From Verrucomicrobiaceae bacterium (GTDB taxonomy: Bacteria; Verrucomicrobiota; Verrucomicrobiia; Verrucomicrobiales; Akkermansiaceae), in contig JAIXOR010000034.1 of assembly GCA_027486655.1 (NCBI GenBank), forward strand, positions 1 to 64,000: a stretch of DNA of 64,000 bases, given 5' to 3'. Made by a program: the position numbers and the translations under genes. Numbering within the stretch: position 1 is the first letter of the stretch; the number at the start of each line of letters is the position of its first letter. Below the pieces are notes generated by a model. That model was not told the DNA's origin and ran no database searches. It saw only the letters and a program-made list of their open reading frames with translations. Shown here piece by piece: positions 34,491 through 60,642 of the stretch.

Positions 34491-37307
34491 TCACCGCTTG
34501 CGGCGACGCAGCAGGGTGATGAGGCCAAGACCGCCGATGAGGGCGGCACCGGGTTCCGGGACGGCCATGAGGGCCACGTCGTTGCCACCGGTGAAGAGTC
34601 CTGTGCCGGAGTTAGCGTTGTAGCTGATCTGCCAGGTGTAGCCGCCGAAAGTGGTGACGACGTCATTCTGCGCGAGGCCGGCGAAGGTGCCGGAAACGGC
34701 ATCCGCTCCATCGTTGAGGAGGATGAAGATGAGGTTGCCGTTCGCAGGTGAGAAGCCGCTGAAGCTGGTGGTGAGGATGCCGCCGAGGGTGATGGTGCCG
34801 AGGACGTTCACTTGATCGTGCTGGGTGCCTGCGGTGAGTCCGTTGACCTCGATGTTGAGGGTGCCGGCCTGGTTGTAGTTTCCATCCACGGTGAGTTGGC
34901 CGGGGCTGCTGCCCGGGTTGAGGGAGCCGCCGGAGAGGATGCTCAGGTCGCCGACGGTGCCGGAGCCGCTGAGTGACGCACCGGATTCCACGGTGGTGAG
35001 GCTGCTGGTGGAGATGTTGCCGCTGACGACCAGGTTTCCGGATTTGACGTTGGTGGCTCCGAGGTAGCCGTTGGAGTTGCTGGAAACGATGTAAGTGCCG
35101 GAACGGCCGCCGGTGGTGCCGAAGTCGATGCCGCCGTTGCCGGTGATGGCTCCGGAGAGTTCGAGCGAAACGGGGCTGGAGGTGACCACATCCTCACGGG
35201 TGTTGACGGTGAGGGTGCCGGCGGTGGAGACGGAGCCGGTAATGGCGGTGCTGAGCGAGGACTGGCCGTTGAGGCGATTGGTGAGGGTGGACGAGCCTTG
35301 GAACGCGATGGATTCCGAATTGAAGCTGACGCTGGTCTGGCTGAAGGGATCGAGCAGTAGAGTGCCGCCGTTCTGGATGGTCGTGGTGCCGGCCGCCGCG
35401 CCGCCGGCGGTGCTGCCCATCGAGTTGGGGTTGCGCAGGCTGAGGGTGGCACCGTTGCTGACGACGATATCGCCGGTGAAGCCGTTGCCGTAGGTGGCGT
35501 TGGCGGTGTTTTGTCCAAGGGCGACCACGCCGGGGCCGTTGATGGTGAGCTGGCCGGTTCCTGAGAGAGTGCCGCCGGAGCGGAAGGTGGCGGCCGAGTT
35601 GGTGACTTCAAGAACGCTGTTGGCCGTGAGGTTGAGAGCAAGGTTGTTCGAGGAAATCGTCGTGCTTCCGGTATAACTGAGCGTTCCACCTCCAAGGGTG
35701 ATGGTCTTGGCTGCGGCAAGGCTGCCGAGGTTTCCATTTCCGGTGTTGGTTTGGCTGGAGAAGCTGAGGACTCCGGAGTTCACGCTGACGCCTCCGGTGA
35801 ATGTGCTGCCGGTGTTGGAAAGTGTCTGGGTTCCGGATCCGTTCTTGATCAGGCTTCCTGCGCCGGAGAGGACGCCGGAGTAGCTGGTGTTCTCGTTGTT
35901 TCCACCGACTGAAAGGGCGATCGCGGCAGGAGAGCCCGCGTTGTTCTGCAGGGCGAGGTTGCTGGAGCCGGCGAGGCCTCCGACGGTGAAGGCATTTCCG
36001 CCGACGGTGCTGGAGAAGACCGCGGTGCCTCCACTGAGGGTCAGCGTGCTGTTCTGGATGGCGTTCTGGTTGCCGAGAAGGATGCTTCCTCCCTGGACGG
36101 TGGTGCTGCCGACGAAGGTGTTGGCACCGGCGATGGTCAGAACGGTGGTGTTTTGTTTGACGAGGCGCAGGTTGTTCTCGTTGGTTCCCGCTCCGCCGAG
36201 CACGACCGCCGTGGTGAGGGTGTCGTCAAGGCTGCGGTTGAGAGTGAGTACGGACATGCCTGAGGCACCGCCGACGATTTTGTTGCCGCTGGTGGAGCCA
36301 AACGCGACATCGCCGGTGAATGTGGCGGAGCCGGCGGTGGTTCCATCGGAGAGCCGCAGGGTTCCGCTGGTGGGGCCGGTGGCGTTTCCAAGGGTGAGGC
36401 CGACACCGGTCAGGGACCCGGCGACCTCCACGACACTTGATCGCACATCGGTGGTGCCGGTGGTGGTGAGGGTGGACTTGATGGTGATGGCGGTGGATGG
36501 CGTCGCGTTGCCTGCGATGATGCCTGCGCTGCCGATGCTCTGGACGTCCGAGGTGCTGTCACCGAGAACGAGCTTTCCAGTTGAGCCGAAACTGGCGCCA
36601 GAACCGAAGGTGATGCCCGATGCGCTTCCCCAGGTCTGGTTGCCGGCGATGGTCCAGGTGCCTGCCCATGACGTGTTGCCCTGCTGGATGGAGCTGTTGA
36701 GGGCGGTTCCGAGATTGGAGGTGATGCGGCCGTTGCCTGCGCCGCCGAGGCGAAGTTGGTAGTTCGCTCCCGGCGAGGCGGAGATGCTGCCATTGAGCTG
36801 GAGGTCGGTTGCGGCGGCTCCGTTGTTTGCCACGAGCTTGAGAATGGTTCCCACGGCTGTGTTGACCTGAATGTTGGAGTCGACGGTCGCAGTGCCGGTC
36901 AGCGCCGCATTGGTCTGGATCAGGCCGTTGGCATCTCCGCTGCCGGTTGCGCCGGTGAGGGAAATGGTGCCGCCGGTGAGCAGGATGCTGGCACCTTCCT
37001 GAAAGTTGAGGCCTTGGGCGATGCGGGTGCCACTGGCGGTGATGGTGAAACTGCCGGTCGCAGTGGTGTCTGCGGAGAAGACTGCGGTATTGGCGGTTCC
37101 CGGGTCAGCGGAGAGAGTTCCTGCACCGCCGGTGCTGTCGGTGTTCCAGAGAGTGTTCGTTCCATCCCATGCGCCCGATGGTGTGGCGGATCCCGGGCCG
37201 GCGCTGGTTCCATTCGTGTCCCAGAAGAGATCCGCGGCAGTGGCCGGGTTCAGGGTGATCAGAGTGGCTAATGCAAGCGTGGCCTGGAGCGAGGGGCGGG
37301 GTTTCAT
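34491..37307 (-). CDS. PEP-CTERM sorted protein with autotransporter-associated beta-strand repeats
   Basis: 938 residues, with the start placed at MKPRPSLQATLALATLITLNPATAADLFWD, which gives a normal signal peptide. The track's extra 33 residues run through the upstream region. The body is a long series of PATR units (such as GAGSLIKNGSGTQTLSNTGSTFTGGVSVNSG), expected to form a right-handed beta-helix. The C-terminus is a textbook PEP-CTERM anchor: VPEP, then GAALIGGLGLITLL, then RRRKR. Export would be followed by exosortase processing, although no exosortase gene is in the window. It has no catalytic domain, so a structural, adhesive or glycan-binding role is likely. It is separated from the neighbouring gene by a terminator and has a 28-bp box 72 bp upstream. 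Confidence 0.9.
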   Translation of the reverse strand: MKPRPSLQATLALATLITLNPATAADLFWDTNGTSAGPGSATPSGAWDGTNTLWNTDSTGGAGTLSADPGTANTAVFSADTTATGSFTITASGTRIAQGLNFQEGASILLTGGTISLTGATGSGDANGLIQTNAALTGTATVDSNIQVNTAVGTILKLVANNGAAATDLQLNGSISASPGANYQLRLGGAGNGRITSNLGTALNSSIQQGNTSWAGTWTIAGNQTWGSASGITFGSGASFGSTGKLVLGDSTSDVQSIGSAGIIAGNATPSTAITIKSTLTTTGTTDVRSSVVEVAGSLTGVGLTLGNATGPTSGTLRLSDGTTAGSATFTGDVAFGSTSGNKIVGGASGMSVLTLNRSLDDTLTTAVVLGGAGTNENNLRLVKQNTTVLTIAGANTFVGSTTVQGGSILLGNQNAIQNSTLTLSGGTAVFSSTVGGNAFTVGGLAGSSNLALQNNAGSPAAIALSVGGNNENTSYSGVLSGAGSLIKNGSGTQTLSNTGSTFTGGVSVNSGVLSFSSQTNTGNGNLGSLAAAKTITLGGGTLSYTGSTTISSNNLALNLTANSVLEVTNSAATFRSGGTLSGTGQLTINGPGVVALGQNTANATYGNGFTGDIVVSNGATLSLRNPNSMGSTAGGAAAGTTTIQNGGTLLLDPFSQTSVSFNSESIAFQGSSTLTNRLNGQSSLSTAITGSVSTAGTLTVNTREDVVTSSPVSLELSGAITGNGGIDFGTTGGRSGTYIVSSNSNGYLGATNVKSGNLVVSGNISTSSLTTVESGASLSGSGTVGDLSILSGGSLNPGSSPGQLTVDGNYNQAGTLNIEVNGLTAGTQHDQVNVLGTITLGGILTTSFSGFSPANGNLIFILLNDGADAVSGTFAGLAQNDVVTTFGGYTWQISYNANSGTGLFTGGNDVALMAVPEPGAALIGGLGLITLLRRRKR

Positions 37308-37378
37308 GAGTGAGTTTTCCAAAGGGCTTGTATGGAGCCTAATGTGCGGAAAGCCGCGTGTTCGTGAAATCCACGTTT

Positions 37379-37406
37379 GCGTATTTGTTGAGGACGATTG
37401 CGCCAA
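37379..37406 (-). promoter_or_regulatory. 28-bp box TTGGCGCAA-N11-AAATACGC upstream of the PEP-CTERM gene
   Basis: Read on the minus strand, TTGGCGCAA and AAATACGC are separated by 11 unrelated bases. The same two half-sites with identical spacing occur at 40770-40797, in front of the next PATR gene. The distance to the ATG is 72 bp and the box lies downstream of the terminator of the previous gene, as expected for a promoter or operator. The XylR/AraC-type regulator encoded at 40819-41958 is the obvious candidate binder, but this is inferred from proximity. Confidence 0.5.
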
Positions 37407-42079: not shown

Positions 42080-43144
42080 TCAGCGGTCGGGCTCGGGGGC
42101 GCCGAGTGGGATTCCGACGTTGAAGCTTTCCTCCAGTTTTCCGGCTGGGGCGGCGGCGCAAAGGAGGATGGTGGGCCGGCCGTTCTCGAAGAACAATTGG
42201 GGCCGTTCGAGCTTGAGAAGCGCTTGTTTGGGGGCGTCTTTCCAGACAAGTTCGAGGGTGGAAACAAGCGGGTGCTTCGCAAGTTTCCAATCGATGCCAT
42301 CGGCCGATTCAAAGAGCGCGAGCGACGTGCCTTTGCCGGTGAAGTGTCCGCTGAAGTCCTTGACGATGGCCCAGTAGCGGTCTTCCCCGCGCCAGATGAA
42401 GGGGTCTTCCGCGGCGAAATGTTCCCCGGGTTTGGTGAAGACCGGGTTGGGGTGTTTCACAAAAGGTCCGGCCGGGGATTCGCTGGTGGCCACGACGTGG
42501 ACGACGGGACCTCCGAAGGGTTTTTTCTTTTTGTCCCCCACGGCCTTGTAAACCATCAGGTAGCCGCCTTCCGGTCGGCGTGTCACCGAGGGGTTGGCGA
42601 GGCAGAGCGCATCATGAAACCCGGGGGTGGGGGAGATGAGCGGTTGGTCCATCCGTTTCCATGGGCCGTTGGGGGTATCCGCCACGGCCACTCCGATGCG
42701 CTGGTTGTTGCGGTGCGTCCAGTTGAGGTCCTTGGAAGCCTTTCCGTCTCCGGTGTTTCCCATGTAGTAGAGGTAATAGCGGCCATCGAACTCCAGCACC
42801 GTCGGGTTGTGCGTGCACAAGCCATCCCAGTGCTCCGCACCGCGGGCGGGCAGCGCCACATCGACGAAACGGAATGGGCCTGAGGGGCTCTCGGCCACGG
42901 CATGGGCGACTTCGGAATGGGTGACCCAAGCGTAGTGCCCCAGCGATCGTGGCCAGCGGGAGTAAAACAAGTGATGTTTGCCATCCTTTCCTTTCACCAT
43001 GGTGCCGCACCAGACGATGAATCCCGGATCTTCAAATTTCGCGCTCGCCGGGATCGGGCGGATGATTCTCTGGAAGTCGAGGTCACCCAAGGCAAGGGTG
43101 TGGGATGCAATCACGGTCAGGGCGGTGGCTAGGATGGCGCGCAT
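42080..43144 (-). CDS. Secreted GH43/GH32-clan beta-propeller glycosidase
   Basis: 354 residues when started at MRAILATALTVIASHTLALGD, a clean signal peptide; the 29 extra residues in the track are upstream sequence. The body is a five-bladed propeller: FEDPGFIVWCGTMVKGKDGKHHLFYSRWP (first acidic blade), CTHNPTVLEFDGRYYLYYMGNTGDG, NQRIGVAVADTPNGPWKRMDQPLI, FAAEDPFIWRGEDRYWAIVKDF. This subgroup is regularly found in plant- and algal-glycan loci, and its exact specificity is unknown to me. It is divergently transcribed from the pectinase gene over a 233-bp region and lies directly upstream of the sugar-sensing regulator, so the two may be co-transcribed. Confidence 0.82.
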   Translation of the reverse strand: MRAILATALTVIASHTLALGDLDFQRIIRPIPASAKFEDPGFIVWCGTMVKGKDGKHHLFYSRWPRSLGHYAWVTHSEVAHAVAESPSGPFRFVDVALPARGAEHWDGLCTHNPTVLEFDGRYYLYYMGNTGDGKASKDLNWTHRNNQRIGVAVADTPNGPWKRMDQPLISPTPGFHDALCLANPSVTRRPEGGYLMVYKAVGDKKKKPFGGPVVHVVATSESPAGPFVKHPNPVFTKPGEHFAAEDPFIWRGEDRYWAIVKDFSGHFTGKGTSLALFESADGIDWKLAKHPLVSTLELVWKDAPKQALLKLERPQLFFENGRPTILLCAAAPAGKLEESFNVGIPLGAPEPDR

Positions 43145-43245
43145 GGATGTGGGAGCGGTATCAAAGGGGCATTCAAATGAAAACTTTATTTTATGAGAGC
43201 GGAAGGCGATCGGCTCTTTGCCGATTGCCACAATGCATCGGCTGG

Positions 43246-43377: not shown

Positions 43378-46300
43378 ATGTCGTCCGGAATCCATTCGCG
43401 CCTGTTCGTTTCGCTGCTGCTGTTCCTTTGTTTTGCGCACAGGATCTCCGCGCAGACGGCAACCGGATGGTTTCCGGTGAACAACGCGACGAACGTCTGC
43501 GCCGACACCCCGCTGAAGATCACCTTCGACACGCCGCCTGTGGTGGGGACCACCGGTGCTGTTAGAATATTCACCAGCGCCGGCACCCTCGTCGAAACCC
43601 TCGACCTCGCGGTTCCGCACACCCGAACCATCGGCGGCACGGTTCACAACGCAATGCCCGTCCTCGTCAGCGGAAACACCGCGTCGATCTTCCCCCGCTC
43701 CGGCGTGCTGGCCTACAACACGACCTACTACGTCACCATCGACGCCACCGTCTTCCCCGGTTACGCGGGCATCTCGGCCAACACCGCGTGGCGCTTCACC
43801 ACCAAGGCCGCCGCGCCTTCCTCCGCCTCGACCTACCTCACCGTCGCCGCCGATGGCAGCGGCGACTTCTGCACGGTCCAGGGCGCGATCGACCTCATCC
43901 CCGCCAATAACACGACGAAGCGCACCATCAACCTCCGCAACGGCACCTATCAGGAAATCGTCCGCGTCTCCTCGAAGCACAACCTCGCCTTCCGCGGCCA
44001 GAACCGGAAACGCACCGTCATCTCCTACCCGAACAACAGCAACCTCAACGCCTCCACCAACACCCGCCCGCTCTTCAACGTCGTCGCCAACGACATCAGC
44101 TTCGACAATCTCACCCTCCACAACACCACGCCCGACGGCGGCTCGCAGGCCGAGTCGCTGCGCGTGAACGCCCAGCGCTGCGTCGTGAACAATTGCGACC
44201 TCCGCAGCTATCAGGACACCTTCCTCGTCAACAGCACAGCCGACACCGCGTACTTCAAGGACTCGCTCATCGAAGGCGACGCCGACTTCATCTGGGGCAC
44301 CGGCCGCGCGGTCTTCCAGAGCTGTGAGATCAAGTCCCTCGCCGGCGGCTACGTCTGCGCCATGCGCAATCCCGCCGGCCAATACGGTGCCGTTTTCCTC
44401 GACTGCCGCTTCACCCGCTCGCCCGGCGTCACCGGTGTCGTGTTCGGCCGGGTCGATCCGAACACCTTCCCCGACAGCGCCGTCGCCGTGGTCAATTGCG
44501 CGGTGGACGCCCACATCACCGCCGCCGGATGGACGCTCTCGAATCCCGGCCCCACCACCGGCCTCCGCTACTGGGAATACCTGAGCACCGATCTAACAGG
44601 AGCGCCCTTGAACGTCAGCGGCCGCGCCTCATTCTCCCAGCAGATCAACGCCACCCAGGCATCCGCCCTGCGCAACCTCGCCACCACTTTCGGCGGCTGG
44701 ACGCCCATCCCTCCGCTCCCCGCCTTCCCTGGTGCCGAAGGCGCGGGCATGAACACCCTCGGCGGCCGCGGCGGCGATCTCTACTTCGTCACCAACCTCA
44801 ACGACTCCGGCGCCGGCTCGCTGCGCGACGCCATCTCCACCGCCCCCTCCACCGGCCGCACCATCCTGTTCCGGACCTCCGGCACCATCGCGCTCAACTC
44901 CACCCTTACGGTCAACAAACCCCGCATCACCATCGCCGGACAATCGGCCCCCGGTGGCGGCATCTGCCTGAAAAACTACACGCTCCGCGCTGGCGCCGAC
45001 GACGTGATCATCCGCCACATTCGCTCCCGGCTCGGCACCGACGCCAACCGTGAGGACGACGCCATCACCGTGACCGGCGGCATCAACGTGATGATCGACC
45101 ACTGCTCCGCTTCCTGGTCCGTGGACGAGGTTCTCAGCGTCACCAACGCCGCCGACAACGTCACCGTCCAGTGGTCGATGATCTCCGAGGCGCTCGACAA
45201 CTCGATCCACTCGAAAGGCCCGCACGGTTTTGGCTCTCTGCTCGCCTGCCATGTCCCGGCCCGCTATTCGTTCCACCACAATCTCTACGCCCACAACAAG
45301 AGCCGCAACCCCAGGCCCGGCAGCGATTTCGGAGCGATCCTCAATCTCGATTTCCGCAACAACGTGATCTACAACTGGGGCTACTTCTGCGGCTACAGCG
45401 GCGGGGCCGACGAAGACGTGGAGATGAACCACGTCGCGAACTACATGGTCAAGGGACCGGGTTCCACCACCGACTCCGCCTTCCGCGGCGGCGCGGCCAC
45501 CACCCTCATCCATCAGAGCGGCAACCGGATCGACCTCAACAAGAACGCCACCTTCGACGGCACGGACACCGGATGGTCGATGTTCAGCGGCACCTACACC
45601 CAGCGCGCCAGCGCGTTCGACTTCGCGCAAACCAACACCACCGACAGCGCCAGCCTCGCCCTCCAACGCGTGCTCTCCAAAGCCGGCGCACGTCCCTGGT
45701 CCCGTGACACCAAGGACGCCGCCATCGCCGCGAACGTCTCCGCAGGCACCGGCACCTTCGTCAACACCTCCGCCGATGCGGGCGGCTATCCGGTTCTAAC
45801 AGCCACTCCGGCGCCGACCGATAGCGACAACGACGGCATGCCCGACGATTGGGAGAGCGCCGTCGGCAGCGATCCCTTCGTGGCCAACCACAACGCGGAC
45901 GCCGATGCGGACGGCTACACCGATCTCGAGGAATACCTCAACTGGCTCTCCGCCCCGCACGCCTTCACCCAGAAGAACAACGCCGTCCAGATCGACCTCC
46001 AACAGCTCAACGGCAATCGCACGGGACTCACTTACACCTTGGGCAATCCCTTCAACGGCACCGTCACTCTCGCCCCCGACGGTCGCACCGCCACCTTCAC
46101 GCCCACCGCAGGCTTCCAGGGGCTCGGCGCTTTCACCTTCAGCTTCACCGCCCTCGGCGAAACGATCAGCCAGACCGTGGGCGTCGCCGTCACCGCCGGT
46201 CCTCCCCGCGAGGTCTCGTGGACCGGCGCGACCAACGGCATCTGGGACCTCGCCGCCACCGCGAATTTCCACGACGGCAGCGCCGCCACCCCCTTCGCCC

Positions 46301-49300
46301 AGGGCGACCGTGTCCGCTTCCTCCAGACCGGCGCGAATCCCACGATCACTCTGTCCGGTTCGCTCGCCCCCTCGCTCATGACGGTGGACGCCACGAAGGA
46401 CTATTCGTTCGGCGGCACCGGTTCGCTCACCGGCTCGATGAGCGTGGTAAAATCCGGTAGCGGAAAACTCACCCTATCCACCGCCAACAGCTTCACCGGC
46501 GGAGTCACCGTCACCGGCGGCACCCTCGCCCTCACGAATGCCAGCGCCGCCGGCAGCGGGCCGATCAGCATCCAGCAATCCACCCTCGACATCGCCGGCC
46601 TCAACCTCGTCAACCCCGTCGACTTTACCGGCACCAGCCAGTTGACCGGGCTCGCCTTTTGCAAACTCAAGGCAGTGAGCGGCGATGGCACGGTCAACGT
46701 CTCCATCGGCTCCAGCCCCTTTGATCTAACAGGAAACATGGCGGACTTCTCCGGCTCGCTGGTTCTCGCCACCAATACCAACATCCGGCTGCTCACCGGC
46801 ACCACCGGCTCCGCGCTCGCCACCTTCGATCTCGGCAGCGGCACCGGCAACATCACCGTCCGCAACAACCTGCCCGCCATCGCCATCGGCGCCTTGAAAG
46901 GCGGGCCCAACACCCTGCTGCTTGGCCAGAGCAACGACAACCAGGCCACCACCTTCACCATCGGCGGAAACGATCAGGACAGCACCTTCTCCGGCGGCAT
47001 CCGCAACGGCACGTCGGGGGCCGCCGCCATCACCTCGGTCACCAAGATTGGTAGCGGCACCCTCACCCTCGCCGGAACCAGCAACTACACCGGCGCGACG
47101 CTGGTCAACGAGGGCACGCTCCGGGTCACCGGCGCTCTCGGCGCGACCGCCGTCACTGTCGCCAATGGCGCAAATCTAACAGGCACCGGCACCCTCGGCG
47201 GCTCCGTGACGGTTCAAACCGGCGGCTCCATCGCCTCCGGCTCCGGCGGTGCGGGCACGCTCGCCATCGCCGGCGGACTCACGCTCAACGGCACGCCGCT
47301 CACCTTCGACCTCAACAACAGCCCGACCGCCGGCGGCGGCATCAACGACCTCTTCACCATTGGTGGCGCTCTGACCCTGAACGGCACCATCATCATCACG
47401 CCGAACCTCCTCAACGGCCCGCTCGCCGCCGGCACCTACACCCTGATCAGCGGCGGCAGTTCCACCGTGAACAACGCGACCTTCGTCTGGGGCGGCACCC
47501 CGAACGGCGGCCGCCAGAACGTCGCCTTCGACACCGGCACGCCCGGCACGCTGAAGCTCGTCGTCACCGGCACGCCCTCCGCCTCGCTCTTCTGGAACGG
47601 CAGCCCCGGCACCACCTGGGACTCCGGTGATCCCCTCGTCCCCGCCAGCGGCGCGGCCAACTGGCGCAACGGAGCCGCCGCCGACCGTTTCGTGAAATAC
47701 GACAGCGTCACCTTCGACGACACCCTCGCCAACGGCACCGCCGTTCTAACAGGAAACGTCGAGCCCGCCGCTCTCACTGTCAACAACACCACCAAATCCG
47801 TCACCCTCAACGCCAACGCGGGCAGCATCACCGGCGGCACCTCCTTGATCAAAAGCGGCACAGGCACCCTTACCCTCGATGGAGCGAACACCTACAGCGG
47901 CGGCACCACCCTCAACGCCGGAACCATCCAACTCGTCAGCGACAACGCGAACACCAACGCCCTCGGCAGCGGTCCCGTCACTCTCAAGGGCGGCACGCTC
48001 GCCATGTTGTCGAATTTCAGCACCTCGAACACCTCTACCTGGAACCTCGTCGTCCCCACCGGCTTCACCGGCACCCTGAACTGCGACTCCCGCTGCTCGA
48101 TCCGCGGCTCCCTGACAGGCGGCGGCATCCTCAACCTTTACATCCCCGACATCCGCACCGGCATCGATGCCGATTGGTCCGCCTTCACCGGCCGCATCAA
48201 CGTCACCACCGATGCCAACGGCGGCGAGTTCCGCATCGGTAACAACTACTCGCCCACCGGCCTGCCGCTCGCAGCCCTGAATCTCGCCGCAAATGTCACG
48301 TTGCGTTATGTCGGCATCGTCGATGCCGGCCCCGGCTCCAAGGTCGCGGTCGGCGCTCTAACAGGCGCGCCCGGCTCCATCCTCCAGGGAGGCCCGACCA
48401 CCGGCCGGACCTTCACCTGGGAGATCGGCCAGGGAAACACGGACACGCTTTTCCAAGGCATCATCTCCGAACAGGCAGCAGGCTGCATCACCGCCCTCAA
48501 CAAAGTCGGCAGCGGCGTGCTGAAGCTCACCGCCGCTTCCAGCCACAGCGGCCCCACCACCGTTTCCGCCGGTTCGCTGATCGTGAACGGCAGCATCAGC
48601 GCCAGCCCGCTCACGGTGAGCGCCGGTGCGCTGTTAGGCGGCAGCGGCAGCCTCGCCGCCACCACCATTCAGGGCGATGCCACTCTCGCTCCCGGTGATG
48701 GCGGCCCCGGCGTGCTCACCGTTACCGGCGGGCTCACCCTCGCCGCGGAAAGCGTCGCCGCCTTGGAAATTGGAACCTCGCGCGACCGCATCGACGTCAC
48801 CGGCAACCTCGTCCTCAACGGCCTCGTCAACTTCACCAACTCGGGCGGCCTCCTCCCGGGCACCTACACGATCTTCAACTACACCGGCACCCTCGGCACG
48901 ACCGGTCTCGCCGTCGGCAGCGTGCCGCCCGACTTCGCCTGCACCCTCGACACCGCCACGCCCGGCCAGGTGAAAGTCGTCGTCACCAGCACGCTCAGCG
49001 CCTTCCAGCAATGGCAGGTCCTGTGGTTTGCAGACTACAACTCGCCCAACGCCGCCGCCAGCGCCGATCCCGACCTCGACGGCCAGACCAACAACGACGA
49101 ATTCCTCGCCGGCACCGACCCCACCTCCGCCGCCTCCGTGGCCACCCTCGCCTGGCGCGGCGATGGTGCCGCGAACCTTTGGAACGCCGGCACCGCCGCC
49201 ACCTTCTGGAACGGCAACCGCCTTTCCACCTTCACCAATGGCAACCCCGTCCTCTTCGACGCCACCGGATCCGCCAACCCCAGCGTCAATCTAACAGGAG

Positions 49301-51054
49301 CGCTCTCGCCGGCCTCCGTTTCGGTCAACAACACCACCGCCTTCACCTTCACCGGGCCGGGCAATCTAACGGGTGTCGCCGCGCTGACAAAAACGGGAAC
49401 CGGAATCCTCAACCTCCAAACCCCGAACTCCCACAGCGGCGGCACCGTGGTCAACGGCGGCACGGTCAATCTTTCCGGAAACCAATCGGGCGCGACCGGC
49501 GGCTACGCGCTGAACATTGTGAACTCCGCCACTTCGACCCTCAACCTCGGCAGCGCTTCGCAAAGCGCAGCCACCTCGATCGTCAGCGGCGCTTCCAAGT
49601 CCATCCAGTTGGGCGCGATCCCCGGCGTCAACACCGCGACCAGCACGGCCGCACAAACCGTGAACGTGAACGGCGCGTCCGCCTTCCCGACCACCGTCAC
49701 CAACAGCGGTTCGCTCGCGGTCGCACGCAACGCGACCCTGAACCTCGGCGACCACTCGACCTGGAACCAGGCCGGCGCGATCAACGTGCAGGCCAACGGC
49801 GGCTACAGCGCCAACCTCAACATCGGCACCGCGGCAGGCAGCAACGCCGCGATGGTTTACAGCGGCACCAGCCCCATCCAGTTGTCGCAAACCGCCGGCA
49901 CCACCAGCGTCAGCACGCTCACCGTCCGCGGTGGCGTTCTAACAACCGGGCAGCCCGTGCACTTCAACGGCGCGTCCGGCAACTCCATTGGTTACGGCCG
50001 CATCATCCTCACCAACGGCGGCACCCTCAAACTCTCCGCCAATCTTCCCCAACTGGTCACCGGCGACGCCAGCGGCCGCGTCATCCTTTCCAGTGGTGGA
50101 GGCGGCATCATCGACACCAACAGCTTCTCCACCACCCTCGACCGCCCGCTTGCCGACAGCAACTCCGTCACTTTCATCGGCTCCCTCGCCAAGGCCGGCG
50201 CGGGAACGCTCACCCTGAGCGGCAGCCACGGCCACACCGGCACCACCACCGTCAGCGGCGGCACCCTCGCGGTGAATGGCAGCCTCACCACCAGCCCAAT
50301 CACCGTCTCTTCATCCGCCACCCTCGCCGGCAGCGGCACCGTCGGCGCGGTCAACGTTTCCAACGGGGCCACACTCTCGCCCGGCGCGGACACTCCCGCC
50401 ACCTTCGCAACTGGCGCACTGACCCTCGCCTCGGGAAGCACCAGCCGATTCCAACTCGGCGCTTCCAGCGATCGCGTGAACGTCAGTGGCAACCTCGTCC
50501 TTGGCGGCACCTTCGTGCTGCTCGACACCGGCGGCGCGCTCAGCGGCAGCCATACGCTCTTCACCCACAGCGGCACCCGGTCCAGCAGCGCCACGATCAT
50601 GCCGCCGCCCGGTTTCGCCGCCGTGCTCGACCTCACCACTCCCGGCATCGTCAAAGCCACGCTCACCGCGAACACCTACTCGACCTGGTCGCGCGACCAC
50701 TTCACGCCCGCCGAGCTCGCCAACCCAGCCATCAGCGGACCCGATGCCATCCTTGCTGGCGACGGCCTCACCAACCTCCTCAAATACGCCCTTGGTCTCC
50801 CGCCAAAGACCCCGTCCACCACCGGGATCTCGCTTGCCAAGTCCGGTGCCGAATGGTGGTTCACCTATCAACGTCCCGCGAACCGCTCCGACCTGACCTA
50901 TTCGCCGGTGATTTCTAACCATCTTGCCTCATGGACCACCACCGGACTGATCCACGAACGAATCGCTACCGGCGATCCGGAAACCTGGCGCGCCCGTCTT
51001 CCTAACGCGCCCGCCAACCGCCTCTTCTTCCGGCTCAATGTCACCCGGCCCTGA
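43378..51054 (+). CDS. Giant pectin methylesterase (CE8) and pectate lyase (PL1) fusion with beta-strand repeats
   Basis: 2558 residues from MSSGIHSRLFVSLLLFLCFAH, a signal peptide; the track's first 91 residues are untranslated. Domain order: an SbsA-type Ig (Big_5) domain 32-145; CE8 pectinesterase 150-395 (ADGSGDFCTVQGAIDLIP, catalytic blocks LRSYQDTF and GDADFIWGTG); PL1-type lyase 445-775 (AFPGAEGAGMNTLGGRGG, IDHCSASWSVDEVLS, YSFHHNLYAHNKSRNPR); a DxDxDG calcium-type segment near 820; PATR repeats 940-2420 interrupted by another DPDLDG segment near 1900; the shared C-terminal module. De-esterification followed by lyase cleavage of homogalacturonan would thus be performed by one extracellular chain. 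Eight TGTTAGA words in this gene are embedded mostly as CTA ACA. The kinase gene starts 10 bp after the stop. Confidence 0.92.
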   Translation: MSSGIHSRLFVSLLLFLCFAHRISAQTATGWFPVNNATNVCADTPLKITFDTPPVVGTTGAVRIFTSAGTLVETLDLAVPHTRTIGGTVHNAMPVLVSGNTASIFPRSGVLAYNTTYYVTIDATVFPGYAGISANTAWRFTTKAAAPSSASTYLTVAADGSGDFCTVQGAIDLIPANNTTKRTINLRNGTYQEIVRVSSKHNLAFRGQNRKRTVISYPNNSNLNASTNTRPLFNVVANDISFDNLTLHNTTPDGGSQAESLRVNAQRCVVNNCDLRSYQDTFLVNSTADTAYFKDSLIEGDADFIWGTGRAVFQSCEIKSLAGGYVCAMRNPAGQYGAVFLDCRFTRSPGVTGVVFGRVDPNTFPDSAVAVVNCAVDAHITAAGWTLSNPGPTTGLRYWEYLSTDLTGAPLNVSGRASFSQQINATQASALRNLATTFGGWTPIPPLPAFPGAEGAGMNTLGGRGGDLYFVTNLNDSGAGSLRDAISTAPSTGRTILFRTSGTIALNSTLTVNKPRITIAGQSAPGGGICLKNYTLRAGADDVIIRHIRSRLGTDANREDDAITVTGGINVMIDHCSASWSVDEVLSVTNAADNVTVQWSMISEALDNSIHSKGPHGFGSLLACHVPARYSFHHNLYAHNKSRNPRPGSDFGAILNLDFRNNVIYNWGYFCGYSGGADEDVEMNHVANYMVKGPGSTTDSAFRGGAATTLIHQSGNRIDLNKNATFDGTDTGWSMFSGTYTQRASAFDFAQTNTTDSASLALQRVLSKAGARPWSRDTKDAAIAANVSAGTGTFVNTSADAGGYPVLTATPAPTDSDNDGMPDDWESAVGSDPFVANHNADADADGYTDLEEYLNWLSAPHAFTQKNNAVQIDLQQLNGNRTGLTYTLGNPFNGTVTLAPDGRTATFTPTAGFQGLGAFTFSFTALGETISQTVGVAVTAGPPREVSWTGATNGIWDLAATANFHDGSAATPFAQGDRVRFLQTGANPTITLSGSLAPSLMTVDATKDYSFGGTGSLTGSMSVVKSGSGKLTLSTANSFTGGVTVTGGTLALTNASAAGSGPISIQQSTLDIAGLNLVNPVDFTGTSQLTGLAFCKLKAVSGDGTVNVSIGSSPFDLTGNMADFSGSLVLATNTNIRLLTGTTGSALATFDLGSGTGNITVRNNLPAIAIGALKGGPNTLLLGQSNDNQATTFTIGGNDQDSTFSGGIRNGTSGAAAITSVTKIGSGTLTLAGTSNYTGATLVNEGTLRVTGALGATAVTVANGANLTGTGTLGGSVTVQTGGSIASGSGGAGTLAIAGGLTLNGTPLTFDLNNSPTAGGGINDLFTIGGALTLNGTIIITPNLLNGPLAAGTYTLISGGSSTVNNATFVWGGTPNGGRQNVAFDTGTPGTLKLVVTGTPSASLFWNGSPGTTWDSGDPLVPASGAANWRNGAAADRFVKYDSVTFDDTLANGTAVLTGNVEPAALTVNNTTKSVTLNANAGSITGGTSLIKSGTGTLTLDGANTYSGGTTLNAGTIQLVSDNANTNALGSGPVTLKGGTLAMLSNFSTSNTSTWNLVVPTGFTGTLNCDSRCSIRGSLTGGGILNLYIPDIRTGIDADWSAFTGRINVTTDANGGEFRIGNNYSPTGLPLAALNLAANVTLRYVGIVDAGPGSKVAVGALTGAPGSILQGGPTTGRTFTWEIGQGNTDTLFQGIISEQAAGCITALNKVGSGVLKLTAASSHSGPTTVSAGSLIVNGSISASPLTVSAGALLGGSGSLAATTIQGDATLAPGDGGPGVLTVTGGLTLAAESVAALEIGTSRDRIDVTGNLVLNGLVNFTNSGGLLPGTYTIFNYTGTLGTTGLAVGSVPPDFACTLDTATPGQVKVVVTSTLSAFQQWQVLWFADYNSPNAAASADPDLDGQTNNDEFLAGTDPTSAASVATLAWRGDGAANLWNAGTAATFWNGNRLSTFTNGNPVLFDATGSANPSVNLTGALSPASVSVNNTTAFTFTGPGNLTGVAALTKTGTGILNLQTPNSHSGGTVVNGGTVNLSGNQSGATGGYALNIVNSATSTLNLGSASQSAATSIVSGASKSIQLGAIPGVNTATSTAAQTVNVNGASAFPTTVTNSGSLAVARNATLNLGDHSTWNQAGAINVQANGGYSANLNIGTAAGSNAAMVYSGTSPIQLSQTAGTTSVSTLTVRGGVLTTGQPVHFNGASGNSIGYGRIILTNGGTLKLSANLPQLVTGDASGRVILSSGGGGIIDTNSFSTTLDRPLADSNSVTFIGSLAKAGAGTLTLSGSHGHTGTTTVSGGTLAVNGSLTTSPITVSSSATLAGSGTVGAVNVSNGATLSPGADTPATFATGALTLASGSTSRFQLGASSDRVNVSGNLVLGGTFVLLDTGGALSGSHTLFTHSGTRSSSATIMPPPGFAAVLDLTTPGIVKATLTANTYSTWSRDHFTPAELANPAISGPDAILAGDGLTNLLKYALGLPPKTPSTTGISLAKSGAEWWFTYQRPANRSDLTYSPVISNHLASWTTTGLIHERIATGDPETWRARLPNAPANRLFFRLNVTRP

Positions 51055-51064
51055 GCACACTCCC

Positions 51065-53212
51065 ATGCGCCTTCTCCGTTGGATTGCCTTGGCCCTGCTT
51101 GCCGCTCTGACGATGCCGTTGGATGCCGAGCCATTGACCCGGGTGGCCGAGATCCGCGGCCTTTCTCGCGAGGACGCCGCCAAGGCCATCCCCGTGAAGT
51201 TCGCCGGTGTGGTCACCTATGTGGGTTGGGAAAACTTCGTGGTGCATGACGGCGAAACCTCGATCTTCGCCGACTTCCGGTTTTCAAAAGCAAAGGGCCA
51301 CTGGCTCGATGAGATCCCGGATCTTTCGAAACTGCAGCCCGGAGATGGTGTCGAAGTCGAGGGTCTCAGCGATCCCGGAGGCTTTTCGCCCATGGTGCTG
51401 GTGACCAAGTTCCGCCGCATCGGCCGGCAGGTCGTTCCCGCTCCCCTCAGACCTTCCATGGAGCTCCTTCTATCAGGTTCCCAGGATACCCAATGGATCG
51501 AGGTCGAAGGCGTGGTCCGCCAACACCACCCTTCCGAGCCCGGCCCGGAGCGCCTCGCCCTCGTCGTGGCCGGTCACCGATGTCCCGTTATCTTGAGCAA
51601 CCGCACCGGCCTCCGGCCCGAGCAACTTGTCGACGCCCGCGTCCGGGTTCGCGGCGTGCTGCTCAATATCGCCAACCTCCGCTCCCAGGTCGCGGGACTC
51701 AAGATCCACAGCAACGGCCGGCAGGATATCGACATCCTCGCTCCTCCCTCCGCCGATCCCTTCCTCGCCCCGCAGGTCTCGCTCGACCGCCTCATTCCTT
51801 TCGATCCGCAGGCTGATTTCGGCCATCGCAGGGTCTCCTCCGGCGTTGTCACCTTCGTCGCACCCGGCCGTTTCTTCTATCTTCTGGATCGCGGCGCCTG
51901 CGTGCGGGTTGACAGCGTCGATGCCGTCGTCTCTCCCGGCGACAGGGTGGAGGTCTCCGGTTTCATCGATACCGATCGCGTGCTCGCCTCGTTCAGCGAA
52001 GCGCTCGTCCGCGTCATCGGGAAGGGGCCCGTTCCGCCACCCGCACCCGCCGATATTCCGGCAATTCTTGAGCCCAAGGTCCGCAGCTATGAAGAAATGG
52101 TGGCTGAACACGGATACACCGACGCCAACGGCCGCCTGGTTCGCCTTCAAGGGATCTTGCGGCGCGTTCTTCCGGCCGACAAAGAAGGCAACGCTGCCCT
52201 CGTGATCGAATCCGGCGAGCACCTTTTCCAAGCATTCCTTCCCATCATCAATGACACTTCGTCACGCAGACTCCAATCGTGGATCGAAGGTTCCACCATC
52301 GAACTGACCGGGGTCTCGGAATTGGAAATGGTCCGCATCGACACCCAACCCTGGTATGCCATTGCCGGATTCCACCTCTGGCTTTCTTCTCCCGACGATC
52401 TGCGAGTGATCGCCAGACCGCCATGGTGGACGCCGCAACGACTCGCCATCGTGCTGGCCGGTGTGTTGATGGTGCTTGGCCTCGTATTCGCCTGGGCTTA
52501 CGCGATGCGTCGCCAGGTCGCCCTTCGCAGTGGTCAACTCGCCCGTGAAATCGCCGCTCGCGAAGCCGCCACGCTGGAGTTTGACGCCATCCTCCGCGAA
52601 CGCCGACGGCTTGCCAACGATCTCCACGACACGCTGGAACAAGCTCTCACCGGCCTCGCTCTGCAACTTGAAATCACCGATCGAAGCAAAGCCTCCAACC
52701 CCGAACTCAGCGCCCGCCACCTCCACCTCGCCCAGCAGTTTCTCGAGCGCAGCCGCCGCGAAGTCCACCGCACGGTCTGGGACCTCCGCGCCCACGGGCT
52801 TGACGGGCGGGATGTCATTGACCTCCTCCACGAGCGCGCCACCGCCATGGTCCAGGGCTCGCCCGTCGCCATCTCCGTGGAACGTGATGGCTCTTCCTTG
52901 CCTCTTCCCGACCTCCTTGCCGGCAACCTTCTCATGCTCGCCCAGGAAGCCGTCACCAACGCCCTCAAACACGGCGCGCCCTCCCGCATCTCGCTGCGTC
53001 TGAAATCGCAGGATCAACACATCGAACTCGAAGTCCGCGATGACGGCCGGGGCTTCGACCCCGTCACCGCTGCAGGACAGCTTGAAGGACACTTCGGACT
53101 CCAGGGCATGCGCGAGCGTGCCAAGCGCCTCGGCGGCATTCTCGATGTTAGCTCTTCCCCGGGCCAGGGCACCTCCGTCAACATCCGCGTCCCGCTACCC
53201 ATTCAGCCATGA
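51065..53212 (+). CDS. Sensor histidine kinase (HisKA_3) with large extracytoplasmic OB-fold-like region
   Basis: 715 residues from MRLLRWIALALLAALTMPLDA; the ATG at 51038 overlaps the pectinase gene and would spoil the signal. Residues 25-445 are extracytoplasmic and appear to be several OB-fold-like units (such as SSGVVTFVAPGRFFYLLDRGACVRVDS...GDRVEVSGFID). A WWTPQRLAIVLAGVLMVLGLVFAW helix follows (455-482). The HisKA_3 box RRRLANDLHDTLEQALTGLALQLE carries His near 520, and the HATPase domain has QEAVTNALKHGAPSRISL and DDGRGFD. It is a NarL/LiaS-type kinase paired with the response regulator that overlaps it by 4 bp, and is paralogous to the kinase at 57676. The ligand may be a pectin fragment, given the neighbour; this is inferred. 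Confidence 0.92.
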   Translation: MRLLRWIALALLAALTMPLDAEPLTRVAEIRGLSREDAAKAIPVKFAGVVTYVGWENFVVHDGETSIFADFRFSKAKGHWLDEIPDLSKLQPGDGVEVEGLSDPGGFSPMVLVTKFRRIGRQVVPAPLRPSMELLLSGSQDTQWIEVEGVVRQHHPSEPGPERLALVVAGHRCPVILSNRTGLRPEQLVDARVRVRGVLLNIANLRSQVAGLKIHSNGRQDIDILAPPSADPFLAPQVSLDRLIPFDPQADFGHRRVSSGVVTFVAPGRFFYLLDRGACVRVDSVDAVVSPGDRVEVSGFIDTDRVLASFSEALVRVIGKGPVPPPAPADIPAILEPKVRSYEEMVAEHGYTDANGRLVRLQGILRRVLPADKEGNAALVIESGEHLFQAFLPIINDTSSRRLQSWIEGSTIELTGVSELEMVRIDTQPWYAIAGFHLWLSSPDDLRVIARPPWWTPQRLAIVLAGVLMVLGLVFAWAYAMRRQVALRSGQLAREIAAREAATLEFDAILRERRRLANDLHDTLEQALTGLALQLEITDRSKASNPELSARHLHLAQQFLERSRREVHRTVWDLRAHGLDGRDVIDLLHERATAMVQGSPVAISVERDGSSLPLPDLLAGNLLMLAQEAVTNALKHGAPSRISLRLKSQDQHIELEVRDDGRGFDPVTAAGQLEGHFGLQGMRERAKRLGGILDVSSSPGQGTSVNIRVPLPIQP

Positions 53213-53841
53213 AACCATCCCGCCGTATCCGCATCCTGATTGTTGACGACCACTCCATCGTCCGCATCGGGATGTCCGGACTGCTGGCGATGGAGAGTGA
53301 TTTGGAAGTCGTCGCCGAAGCCGAAGATCTTGAACAGGCTCTTGCCGCATTCACGCTCCACCGCCCCGACGTCACGCTCATGGATGTCAGGATGCCGGGT
53401 GGAAACGGGCTTGAGGCGCTCGCAAAGATCCGTGCTGTCGACCCGGGTGCACGCGTCGTCATGCTCTCGACCTTCGACCTCGAACAACCGATCACAGCCG
53501 CTCACGACGCCGGTGCCGCCGGCTATCTTCTCAAGTCGATCAAAGGTGCTGAACTCGCCGCCGCGATCCGCCGCGTCCACGCTGGCGAGTCGTGTTTTCC
53601 CGCTGCGTTGCACGGCCACCTCGCCGCCCGAGCGGGTTCCAAACCTCTCACCCCACGCGAGATCGAAACCCTTGATCTCCTCCGCCGGGGGCTGTCCAAC
53701 AAGGATATCGGCCAGATCCTCGCGATCTCTGAAAACACCGCGAAATTCCACGTCAAGGCCATCCTCGCCAAGCTTGAGGTCACCGACCGCGCGGAAGCCG
53801 TCGCCGCCGCCTATGAGCGCGGACTCCTGCAAGTGGACTGA
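53209..53841 (+). CDS. LuxR/NarL-family response regulator
   Basis: A 210-residue regulator with a receiver domain at 6-122 (acidic pair in IVDDHSIVRIG, phosphoacceptor Asp59 in TLMDVRMPGGNG, conserved Lys109 in GYLLKSIKG). The C-terminal LuxR helix-turn-helix spans 145-205 (LTPREIETLDLLRRGLSNKDIGQILAISENTAKFHVKAIL). All phosphorylation residues are present. It is translationally coupled to the upstream kinase (ATGA overlap). Targets are unknown; the adjacent pectinase and PATR genes are the natural candidates. Confidence 0.94.
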   Translation: MKPSRRIRILIVDDHSIVRIGMSGLLAMESDLEVVAEAEDLEQALAAFTLHRPDVTLMDVRMPGGNGLEALAKIRAVDPGARVVMLSTFDLEQPITAAHDAGAAGYLLKSIKGAELAAAIRRVHAGESCFPAALHGHLAARAGSKPLTPREIETLDLLRRGLSNKDIGQILAISENTAKFHVKAILAKLEVTDRAEAVAAAYERGLLQVD

Positions 53842-53997
53842 AGCCGTGTCCTACCCGGTTGGATAGTAGGCGGCGCGAAGGATTGCGCCCAAGCTCCGCA
53901 CCCATTGGTAGTGGAGGAATATCCGGATGGTCCGAAATCGTGGAACCCATTGCATCCGGCACTGCCGCTCGAAAACCCCAAGCAACCCGCATAACCC

Positions 53998-56900
53998 ATG
54001 AAACGCCGCTCCATCTCGATCTATCAGTTTCTCGGCATCATCGCCACCTGTTCCGCCACCGTCCATGCCGCATCGATTACCCAGACCGCCAACGACGTCT
54101 TTGGCACTCCGGCGCAGGCATCGTTCATCGACTCCGCCCGCTGGAGCAATCTTGCGGCACCTTCCGCCGGCAACACCTACTCCACCAACGGCTTCGTCTT
54201 CCGCACTCCGGCGGTGAACTCGGCCACCGTCACCTTCGCAGGCGATTCGTTGAGTGTCGAAACCCGCTCGACGGCAAGCGGCACCCCCGGTGCCACGGTC
54301 ATCACCAAGGGCACGGCCAACCAGACGATCAGCTTCCCCAACCTCATCATGAACGGCGGGATCTTCAGCCAGGGCGAGAACGGCTACACCCACACGCTCG
54401 CCGGCAACGTCACCGCCAACGCCACTTCCGGTTTCAGCATCACCGACTCCAGCACCCGTAACCTCTTCGTCTCCGCAAACGTCTCGGGAGCCGGACGCCT
54501 CCACGTCGGTTCGTTCGGCCAATACAATGCCAGCAATCCCGCCTACGTTCCCACCGCCTTCACCTCGACCTTCGCCGTGTCGGGAAACAACAGCTCGTTC
54601 AGCGGCGGTTGGACACTCGGCGGGGGCTATGACGCCCCGGTCTTCGGTGGCAGCGGCACTTACCGTCTCAACTTCAACGCCTCCGGCATCACCTTCCGCC
54701 TCGGCCATGCGAACGCCCTCGGCACCGGCACCCTCAGGCTTCACGCCGGAACCGTGAACCTCAACGGATTCAACGCGAGCGGACTCGCCGGCGTCGAACT
54801 CCCGGACAGTGCATCCGCCATAATCCGCACCGCAGGCAATACCCTGAGTGCCACCAACCTCACCCTCGGCTCCACCACCGGTGCCACCCTCAATCTTGAA
54901 ACCGCCGCCGCAGGCAACCCGGCCACGGCACCGATCCAGAGCACCAACTTCACTGTCAACGGCCCGTCCACCCTCGGCGTCCGCGGCACCGCCCTCGCCA
55001 CAGGCTCCTTCCCACTCATCGGTTACACGGGAAGCATCGGTGGCAGCGGCGGCTTCGGCGCCCTCTCGCTGGTTCTGCCTCCCGGTGTCTCCGGCTCCCT
55101 CAGTGACAATCCCGGCGTCTCCGTCAACGCGACCATCAGCAACATCGAGTTCATCCAATGGACCAACGGCGCGTCCACCGGAAATTGGAACATCAATACC
55201 GACGCCAACTGGCAGACCGCCGTCAGCCTCACCAGCAGCACCTATCAGCAAAACGCCGCAGGCGGCCACAGCGTGCTCTTCAACGAATCGGAAACCGCCC
55301 CCAGCCCGGTCGCGATCGCCATTCCCGCCGACGTCAGCCCCAACGCCATCACCGTCAACAACCCGACCAAGGACTACACCTTCTCCGGCCAGAACATCAC
55401 CGGCAGCGCCGCCTTCGTCAAAAACGGAGCCGCTACCGTCAACTTCGCCAACACCCTGCGCGTCACCGGCGGCAACACCATCAACCTCGGCAAGGTCATC
55501 CTCACCGGTGCGGTCTCCGGCACCACCACCACCATCGCCGCAGGCGGTACCCTCGAATACGCCCACACGACCAATCCCGGCCAACCCGCCCACACGTTCA
55601 GCGGCGGCGGCTCGATCATCAAGAGAGGCGCAGGCACCCTCACCTTCAACTCAGGAAACAGCACCATCGCTCTCGCTGACGGTGGCTTGATCGATGTCCA
55701 GGGCGGCAAGATCCAGTTCGGAAACTTCGACGCCCAAGGCTGCTCCGCCACCGCCAACCAATCCGACATGAACATCGCCAGCGGCGCGATCTTCGATGCC
55801 TATGCCGGAACCGTGGTCGTCGATGGACTCACCGGCAGCGGCACCTATCAGGGCGGCTACTTCGGACCGCGCTCGCTCACCGTTGGCATCAATGGCGCGA
55901 GCAGCACCTTCTCCGGCACCATCAAGAGCAACGGGGTCGACGGCAATTCGCAGGTCCAGCTGATCAAGCGCGGCAACGGCACCCTCACCCTCACCGGCAC
56001 CGTCAACGCCCGCGGCGCCTACGGCGGTAGCTCGGTCGAAGTCCGCGGCGGCACCCTGCTGTCCCCCAGCACCCTCAACCTGAGTCCCACCGATCCGCTC
56101 TCGATAACCGGCTACACCGGCGGCCGCGTCCACGTCGGACCGGCCAATACCGACGTCGCCGTCCTCAACCAGACCGCAGGCACCGTTACCGCCAACACCC
56201 TGTCGATCGGTGAATCCGGCCAAGCCACCTACGACATCTCCGGCGGCGCGATCAACGCCACCCAAATCGAACTCGCCTACACCGGCGGAGCTCTCAACCC
56301 ACCCGCCACGCTCAACGTCAGCGGCAGTGCGCAGGTCAACCTCAACAGCAACGGCAGCATCGTGATGGGCCAGTTCTTCGGCCGCTCGGTGACGGTCAAC
56401 CAGAGCGGTGGCCAGGTCGTCCAGTTCAGCGACAACGCCACCACCCGCGGCGGCACCGGCTCGCTGAGGTTCAACAGCGGCAACCAGAATCTCACTTGGA
56501 ACCTCTCCGGCGGCACGCTGTCCCTCGCCGGCATCAGCTGGCTGCCCTCCGGCTCCGGCGCGGGCGGCGGCAACGGCGTCCTCAACCTCAACGGCGGTGT
56601 CCTCCAGATCACCAACGCCGCCTTTGCCGCTCCCACAGGAGATGCCAACGGCAAGCCGAAGGTCGCCGCCAAGGTGCTTGGCGACGAGTTCACGTCTGAA
56701 AGCGGCGCGATCATCGATCCCTACGGCCTCGCCATCACGTTCGCCGCTCCCATCCTCCACGGACCGGTCGGCACCTTCGACGGCGGCTTGAAGATCGCGA
56801 CCTCCATCCCCGGTGGATCGCTCACCTTGACCGGCACCAACACCTATACCGGAAACACGGTGATCCCCGCCAACAACTCGCTGACCCTAGCCGCGAGCTC

Positions 56901-57600
56901 GTCCACCGCCTTCGTGATCGATGGCATGCAATCTAACAAAATAACCGGCGGCGGCTCGGTCGCCATCGACGGTGCCTTTGCACTCGACACCACCTTTGCC
57001 GATCTCACCGACGGCAATACCTGGACGCTCGTCGAGGTCGCCACCCTCGCGGAAACCTTCGGCAGTGGATTCACCCTCGCCGGCTTCACCGAGGACGGCG
57101 TCACAGGCATCCACACCCGGGTCGATGGCTCTAACACCTGGACCTTCGATGAAAGCACCGGCCAGCTGGCCCTCGATGTGGCGTCTCTCAGCGGCTATGC
57201 CCTTTGGATCAGCGGATTCACCGTAGGCGACAGCGCGCCCGGCGCGGATCCCGACAACGATGGCATCGAAAACCTGCTTGAATACGTCCTCGACGCCAAT
57301 CCCTCCGTCGCGGATCCCGACAAGCTCCCTGATCTCGACGCTTCCGGTCCGAACTTTGTGTTCACCTTCCAGCGCCGCGATGACTCGGAAGCCGACACCG
57401 TGCAGGTCTTCCAGTATGGCTCCACCCTCAATGGCTGGACCGATCTCGCAGTCGGCGCCAGCTACGGCCCCGATGGGAACGGTCGCCAGGTTTCGGTCTC
57501 TGAAAACGGTGCCCTGCCCGATGCGATCACGGTCACCCTGCCGAAGGCGCTCGCCATCGACGGCAAACTCTTCGGACGCCTGCAAGCCGTCCAGCCCTGA
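53998..57600 (+). CDS. Secreted beta-strand repeat protein between two two-component systems
   Basis: 1200 residues with a signal peptide (SIYQFLGIIATCSATVHAAS). The N-terminal 380 residues are a beta-rich region that includes FIDSARWSN and a long Thr/Ser-rich solenoid. PATR-type units follow (GGGSIIKRGAGTLTFNSGNSTI, QLIKRGNGTLTLTGTVNARGAYGGSSVEVRGGTL). From about 1075 comes the C-terminal module with ADPDNDGIENLLEYVLDANP and a final beta-domain (FQYGSTLNGWTDLAVG...GKLFGRLQAVQP). No catalytic motif was found. It is probably a secreted or surface-bound solenoid with an adhesive or glycan-binding role, and may be a target of the flanking regulators. The 156 bp upstream show no convincing promoter. 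Confidence 0.85.
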   Translation: MKRRSISIYQFLGIIATCSATVHAASITQTANDVFGTPAQASFIDSARWSNLAAPSAGNTYSTNGFVFRTPAVNSATVTFAGDSLSVETRSTASGTPGATVITKGTANQTISFPNLIMNGGIFSQGENGYTHTLAGNVTANATSGFSITDSSTRNLFVSANVSGAGRLHVGSFGQYNASNPAYVPTAFTSTFAVSGNNSSFSGGWTLGGGYDAPVFGGSGTYRLNFNASGITFRLGHANALGTGTLRLHAGTVNLNGFNASGLAGVELPDSASAIIRTAGNTLSATNLTLGSTTGATLNLETAAAGNPATAPIQSTNFTVNGPSTLGVRGTALATGSFPLIGYTGSIGGSGGFGALSLVLPPGVSGSLSDNPGVSVNATISNIEFIQWTNGASTGNWNINTDANWQTAVSLTSSTYQQNAAGGHSVLFNESETAPSPVAIAIPADVSPNAITVNNPTKDYTFSGQNITGSAAFVKNGAATVNFANTLRVTGGNTINLGKVILTGAVSGTTTTIAAGGTLEYAHTTNPGQPAHTFSGGGSIIKRGAGTLTFNSGNSTIALADGGLIDVQGGKIQFGNFDAQGCSATANQSDMNIASGAIFDAYAGTVVVDGLTGSGTYQGGYFGPRSLTVGINGASSTFSGTIKSNGVDGNSQVQLIKRGNGTLTLTGTVNARGAYGGSSVEVRGGTLLSPSTLNLSPTDPLSITGYTGGRVHVGPANTDVAVLNQTAGTVTANTLSIGESGQATYDISGGAINATQIELAYTGGALNPPATLNVSGSAQVNLNSNGSIVMGQFFGRSVTVNQSGGQVVQFSDNATTRGGTGSLRFNSGNQNLTWNLSGGTLSLAGISWLPSGSGAGGGNGVLNLNGGVLQITNAAFAAPTGDANGKPKVAAKVLGDEFTSESGAIIDPYGLAITFAAPILHGPVGTFDGGLKIATSIPGGSLTLTGTNTYTGNTVIPANNSLTLAASSSTAFVIDGMQSNKITGGGSVAIDGAFALDTTFADLTDGNTWTLVEVATLAETFGSGFTLAGFTEDGVTGIHTRVDGSNTWTFDESTGQLALDVASLSGYALWISGFTVGDSAPGADPDNDGIENLLEYVLDANPSVADPDKLPDLDASGPNFVFTFQRRDDSEADTVQVFQYGSTLNGWTDLAVGASYGPDGNGRQVSVSENGALPDAITVTLPKALAIDGKLFGRLQAVQP

Positions 57601-57675
57601 TCGATCGACAAGCCGCGCGCCGCTTGGCGGAAATCCGGGCTTTCTTCCCTACCTCATGCTCCCCAATCTTGAGGC

Positions 57676-60545: not shown

Positions 60546-60565
60546 CGCCACCCATTTGCAAAATC

Positions 60566-60597
60566 CCTCATCCGGGGGATGGGGCGGATCCATCCGC
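60566..60597. repeat. Two adjacent inverted repeats before the GH106-like gene
   Basis: CCTCATCC-GGG-GGATGGGG (60566-60584, 8-bp stem with one G-T pair) is followed directly by GCGGAT-CC-ATCCGC (60584-60597, 6-bp perfect stem). They lie 46-77 bp before the ATG at 60643 and 21-52 bp after the response regulator. The first shares CGGGGGATGG with the pectinase upstream repeat. They could be an operator pair or a weak terminator without a U-run. Confidence 0.45.
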
Positions 60598-60642
60598 AAC
60601 CCTAGGTTCGGGTCTGTCCCAATCACCGAACCATCGTTTCTC

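Follow-up and report, generated by a model that had tools for sequence, protein, structure and literature searches.

The analysed window, a 64,000-nucleotide stretch from a freshwater Verrucomicrobiaceae bacterium (5.33 Mb genome, 98.5% complete, an 87-contig draft), carries at positions 43378–51054 of the forward strand an open frame of 2558 codons that encodes 2558 aa, hereafter the putative pectinase (Table 1). An alternative start lies upstream at 43105; the start at 43378 yields a good signal peptide (MSSGIHSRLFVSLLLFLCFAHRISAQ). From the N-terminus, the domains follow in the order signal peptide, Big_5, CE8, PL1, TSP3/Big_9 linker, PATR solenoid and C-terminal domain. A preliminary description of this DNA had proposed one 2558-residue chain, and our analysis agrees: the frame is open throughout, and the CE8, PL1-type and repeat regions are all matched by profiles. 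Pfam matches also revealed parts beyond that description, namely the N-terminal Big_5 domain and the TSP3 and Big_9 linker behind the lyase.

Table 1 Features of the pectinase gene and its downstream neighbours (window coordinates).
Feature	Coordinates	Strand	Basis
Whole pectinase ORF	43378..51054	+	ORF reading; Pfam, NCBIfam; full-length orthologs L050, L051, L052+L053
Predicted N-terminal signal peptide, residues 1-26	43378..43455	+	Sequence; heuristic scan positive
Big_5 Ig-like domain, residues 27-142	43456..43803	+	Pfam PF13205, E 2.9e-9
CE8 pectin methylesterase domain (predicted), residues 155-401	43840..44580	+	PF01095, E 4.7e-33; PDB alignments; residue check
PL1-type pectate lyase domain (by similarity), residues 448-811	44719..45810	+	NF041900, E 4e-46; PDB 9buj; VexL; residue check
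TSP3-type calcium-binding-like hinge, residues 815-834	45820..45879	+	Pfam PF18884
Big_9 Ig-like linker	45967..46182	+	Pfam PF17963, E 7.8e-6
PATR / autotransporter-type beta-strand repeat solenoid, residues ~941-2430	46198..50667	+	PF12951, TIGR02601, 6 stretches
Hinge half of the C-terminal domain, internal copy (W...ADPDLDGQTN)	49003..49146	+	Profile match positions 2-50
C-terminal domain, residues 2434-2558: DxDGxxNLLEYA hinge + Ig-like beta sandwich, RLFFRLNVTRP at stop	50677..51051	+	
HisKA_3/HATPase sensor kinase, overlaps pectinase stop by 17 nt	51038..53212	+	Pfam
NarL/MadR-type response regulator	53209..53841	+	NCBIfam
Related C-terminal domain on 1200-aa neighbour (53998-57600)	57220..57597	+	Profile E 1e-16, ends 1 aa from stop

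Downstream, the region 51038–60545 (+) holds two HisKA_3 kinase/NarL-type regulator pairs that flank a 1200-aa PATR-like protein with a divergent C-terminal domain. The pectinase orthologs lack these kinase/regulator neighbours and are followed instead by a YeiH-like membrane protein (likeness judged by eye); co-regulation with the pectinase is therefore unsupported, and we do not claim a regulatory operon of the pectinase and the two pairs. The window further contains a GH43-like gene (42080–43231, −) and a GH106 alpha-L-rhamnosidase-type gene that runs off its end (60508–64000, +), both of which are possible pectin side-chain enzymes.

The CE8 domain matched PF01095 with 114.6 bits (cut-off 27) over model positions 3–259 of 298, and a PDB sequence search also aligned it with plant, fungal and bacterial pectin methylesterase structures. 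Q257, D280, D303 and R358 align with the residues of solved pectin methylesterases and are conserved in the orthologs. The family profile, together with this set of one Gln, two Asp and one Arg, supports assignment as a pectin methylesterase, with demethylation as its predicted activity.

The lyase domain matched the NCBIfam model PelZ (NF041900) at E 4e-46, with a score under the model's equivalog cut-off of 840 bits; its nearest solved relative is PDB 9buj, annotated as 'Pectate lyase' (E 6e-38), and VexL is a more distant one (E 1e-14). No Pfam pectate-lyase model (PF00544-type) reached E 0.01 on the pectinase, and the label PL1 accordingly reflects resemblance to annotated relatives rather than a CAZy profile. 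D561, D574, D583/E584, K613, R643 and R646 are conserved across most of some 20 homologs; they may comprise the catalytic Arg and acidic calcium ligands, going by PelC numbering and not by a structural mapping. A check for loss of catalytic residues, suggested in the preliminary description, found none lost: the four CE8 positions and, among the putative catalytic set of the lyase, D561, D574, D583-E584, K613 and R643 are all conserved. The order of the two enzymes was also given correctly there, whereas the stated limit of 775 residues was slightly too short, as the lyase reaches about residue 811. The domain matches and conserved residues thus support two predicted pectinolytic domains in one secreted chain. 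With VexL, whose substrate is not pectin, among the closest solved relatives and no call from Pfam, the substrate of the lyase half could be another uronan, which would leave no pectin relay between the domains; this is improbable, however, considering the annotation of 9buj, the PelZ match, and the fusion of the lyase to a CE8 domain with intact catalytic residues.

Whole-length orthologs occur in three other Verrucomicrobiaceae MAGs (L050, L051 and L052+L053, the last split over two contigs), with 72–79% identity over essentially the whole chain. The named relatives bearing an ortholog are pond MAGs labelled Verrucomicrobiaceae, and the window protein and these three are the only close full matches among 73 genus genomes. 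The draft state of the source assembly, and a relative in which the CE8 and PL1 domains are separate genes (L128), would fit a CE8–PL1 fusion created by misassembly or a frameshift; yet the same uninterrupted domain order recurs in all three MAGs, which rules out misassembly and chance alike, and we give an artefact practically no credence.

In the relative just mentioned (G267), the CE8 gene immediately precedes the PL1-solenoid gene; the two share one reading frame, interrupted by stop codons, and there is a separate signal peptide. This adjacency suggests that the CE8–PL1 fusion arose from neighbouring genes. Many genus members carry PL1 with the same kind of solenoid and without CE8 (L129, L131–L133). 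Another genome of the genus (G302; L134:3-3512, +) encodes a Big_5-CE8-PL1-type protein that has no solenoid and keeps the same C-terminal domain, probably an independent fusion. The PL1 motif of this protein differs from that of the pectinase and is classical-looking. In a PL1 tree, the four Verrucomicrobiaceae sequences form a clade, and the branches leading to the fused Alteromonadales sequences are long, which makes independent fusion in the two groups likely but not proven.

The solenoid consists of PATR (PF12951) and TIGR02601 repeats in six stretches (E 6.5e-36 and 1.3e-35; Pfam and NCBIfam), with a DxDxDG hinge inside it at about residues 1876–1923; the source genome holds at least 150 PATR repeats. 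About 1500 repeat residues running to the C-terminus had been described: the length stands at about 1490 aa, but the repeats stop near residue 2430, where a non-repeat domain of about 125 aa follows. An AF2 model of residues 939–1560 consists nearly entirely of strands and is weak (pLDDT 61, pTM 0.44), too weak for us to claim a fold from it; Foldseek leads with this model were autotransporter passengers, at E of 3.6e-3 or higher. A beta-helical stalk is the likely form of the repeats.

PATR repeats are a typical feature of autotransporter passengers, whose secretion they promote (PMC9977779). This association, as well as the Foldseek leads, would be expected if the solenoid were a type Va autotransporter passenger that exports itself via its own outer-membrane barrel, with the repeats driving folding outside. 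The pectinase, however, has no barrel domain (no PF03797 in Pfam), a small hinge-plus-sandwich domain occupies its C-terminus, and a single PF03797 barrel genome-wide contrasts with the at least 150 PATR repeats. We rejected type Va identity on the missing C-terminal translocator barrel and regard such a passenger as very improbable. The one barrel of the genome (L049, G000:C37:5257-5985) is on a frame of about 2017 aa. The stalk had also been suggested as the device that holds the enzymes at the cell surface or on the substrate, a role that does not sit well with two observations: the repeats end before the C-terminus, where the terminal domain of about 125 aa has the traits of an element for sorting or attachment, and the solenoid is optional, as L134 lacks it and retains the terminal domain. 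A holding function fits the terminal domain better than the solenoid.

We then examined the distribution of this C-terminal domain. A search with the 127-residue terminal region matched 38 places in the source genome, and a profile built from 28 sequences (A1) revealed at least 37 copies there and detected the domain in 118 of the 142 genomes from the order (some have none, and an Akkermansia-like genus includes both zero-copy and many-copy members) and in 44 of 115 from the phylum; across 14 genomes belonging to other phyla it gave no full-length match. Of 78 copies located in complete ORFs, 76 end no more than 10 aa before the stop codon. A protein rarely carries more than one full copy; one N-terminal (L116) and one internal copy (L017) are exceptional. 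In L116 (649-1989, −), the domain lies right behind the signal peptide and precedes an FGE-sulfatase-like domain (by eye). By a home-made heuristic, applied to the better-scoring matches, a signal-peptide-like start was found in 67/77 carriers vs 15/63 internal control windows. The attached domains are unrelated (alpha-L-fucosidase, GH16, GH115, sulfatase-type, GSDH, CotH/LTD, RCC1 propeller, NHL propeller and pure PATR). Within the window, a 3295-aa protein (22321–32208, −) with Golvesin_C, PATR, HYR, alpha-L-fucosidase, Big_9 and PKD domains carries the same C-terminal domain last. A genome of 2,664,102 bases, which by its size appears to be that of Akkermansia muciniphila MucT, encodes two terminal-domain proteins (L114 and L115), one sulfatase-type (1474 aa) and the other (1277 aa) weakly matching a chitinase/endoglycosidase.

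The C-terminal domain is not covered by any sequence match in Pfam, NCBIfam or PDB; only its hinge part shows a weak resemblance to TSP3 and Amuc_1099. AF2 predicted a sandwich of six strands following a helical hinge (pLDDT 72, and 79–91 for most of the sandwich), for which Foldseek returned generic Ig-like folds only. We infer a surface-sorting or attachment module from the strict C-terminal position and the sharing among dozens of unrelated secreted proteins. Such a generic sandwich, with a first half resembling TSP3/EF-hand-type hinges that also occur internally, is what an ordinary accessory domain (a carbohydrate-binding or spacer Ig-like domain, for example) would present if it came last by chance and signalled neither sorting nor anchoring. 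We consider this unlikely, although still a serious contender, because proteins seldom carry a second full copy and the one they have almost always sits at the very end, and because the carriers include non-carbohydrate proteins (CotH, RCC1 and NHL propellers).

With respect to known C-terminal signals, PEP-CTERM identity was rejected: PEP motif, TM helix and basic tail are all lacking from the domain, and a TM-like tail was found in the last 60 aa of 0/77 carriers. None of the 28 members of the domain matched the type IX secretion CTD models of Pfam or NCBIfam, and a search for the SprA translocon gave no match in 20 genomes, the control genomes being silent too. The genome encodes three exosortases (for other substrates) and a GspD-like secretin, neither of which is linked to the domain. 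A 971-aa PATR protein in the window (34491–37406, −) has a weak PEP-CTERM match, so that exosortase-type and hinge-sandwich-type C-termini coexist here. No described verrucomicrobial C-terminal sorting domain was found in the literature searched, which covered few subscription journals. We tentatively propose that the domain of about 125 aa could serve throughout the Verrucomicrobiota as a C-terminal signal for sorting or surface attachment. Not represented in current family libraries, such a signal would have its own export or anchoring machinery and dozens of users per genome among secreted enzymes and surface proteins, two of them in the presumed A. muciniphila MucT.

Taken together, we favour, with moderate confidence, a secreted, cell-envelope-associated two-step pectinase with a long stalk and a terminal sorting or attachment module. 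The signal peptide would direct export through the inner membrane; CE8, the more N-terminal enzyme, would strip methyl esters from homogalacturonan, making substrate for the PL1-type domain on the same chain, which would cut the newly exposed polygalacturonate by beta-elimination. The beta-repeat stalk may hold the enzymatic head at a distance from the cell, and the hinge-plus-sandwich domain, which the phylum appends to many secreted proteins, may give surface delivery or retention. The two-step reading is also based on the GH43 and GH106 genes of the window, the CE8–PL1 fusions elsewhere, and the CE8 gene upstream of the PL1-solenoid gene in L128. A Gram-negative Verrucomicrobiaceae bacterium would thus pack consecutive steps of pectin breakdown on one long-stalked chain, rather than on separate enzymes of a polysaccharide-utilisation locus. 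Should the terminal module act as a sorting signal, its presence would allow the surface proteome to be predicted for a phylum that abounds in fresh water, soil and gut, and phylogenetic profiling could seek the matching transport machinery.

CE8 and PL1 on one chain is an already known design, since such chains exist outside the phylum and CE8–PL9 and PL10–CE8 proteins have been published; greater interest lies in the C-terminal module. Saccharobesus litoralis (WP_159084287.1, 817 aa) and Pseudoalteromonas sp. HL-AS1 (WP_309169162.1, 2056 aa) encode proteins that likewise have CE8 followed by a PL1-type domain and are annotated only as pectinesterase family protein; identity to the pectinase is low (CE8 30–33%, PL1 24–33%), with no full-length match seen outside both enzyme domains. 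In Bacteroides finegoldii, a CE8 gene lies next to PL1 genes. The PL10-CE8 protein of Maribacter (PMC8072126) combines pectate lyase and methylesterase in the same pairing, with another lyase family. PmeC5 of Butyrivibrio fibrisolvens, a 2089-aa secreted protein with pectin methylesterase, PL9 pectate lyase and adhesin-like domains (PMC12109409), is similarly a giant secreted single chain that joins CE8 and a pectate lyase to autotransporter-adhesin-like or wall-binding parts; it differs in its PL9 lyase (PL1-type here), its Gram-positive wall-binding repeats, and the absence of any reported terminal hinge-sandwich domain. PATR beta-helix-type repeats are shared with the Ssp passenger (8e7f, PMC9977779); unlike Ssp-type passengers, the pectinase has no translocator barrel and bears N-terminal pectinase domains. 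The terminal domain itself resembles PEP-CTERM/exosortase signals (PMC1569441) and type IX CTDs in being strictly C-terminal and present on many unrelated secreted proteins per genome, and differs in lacking the PEP motif, TM helix and basic tail and in having no similarity to library models of these signals.
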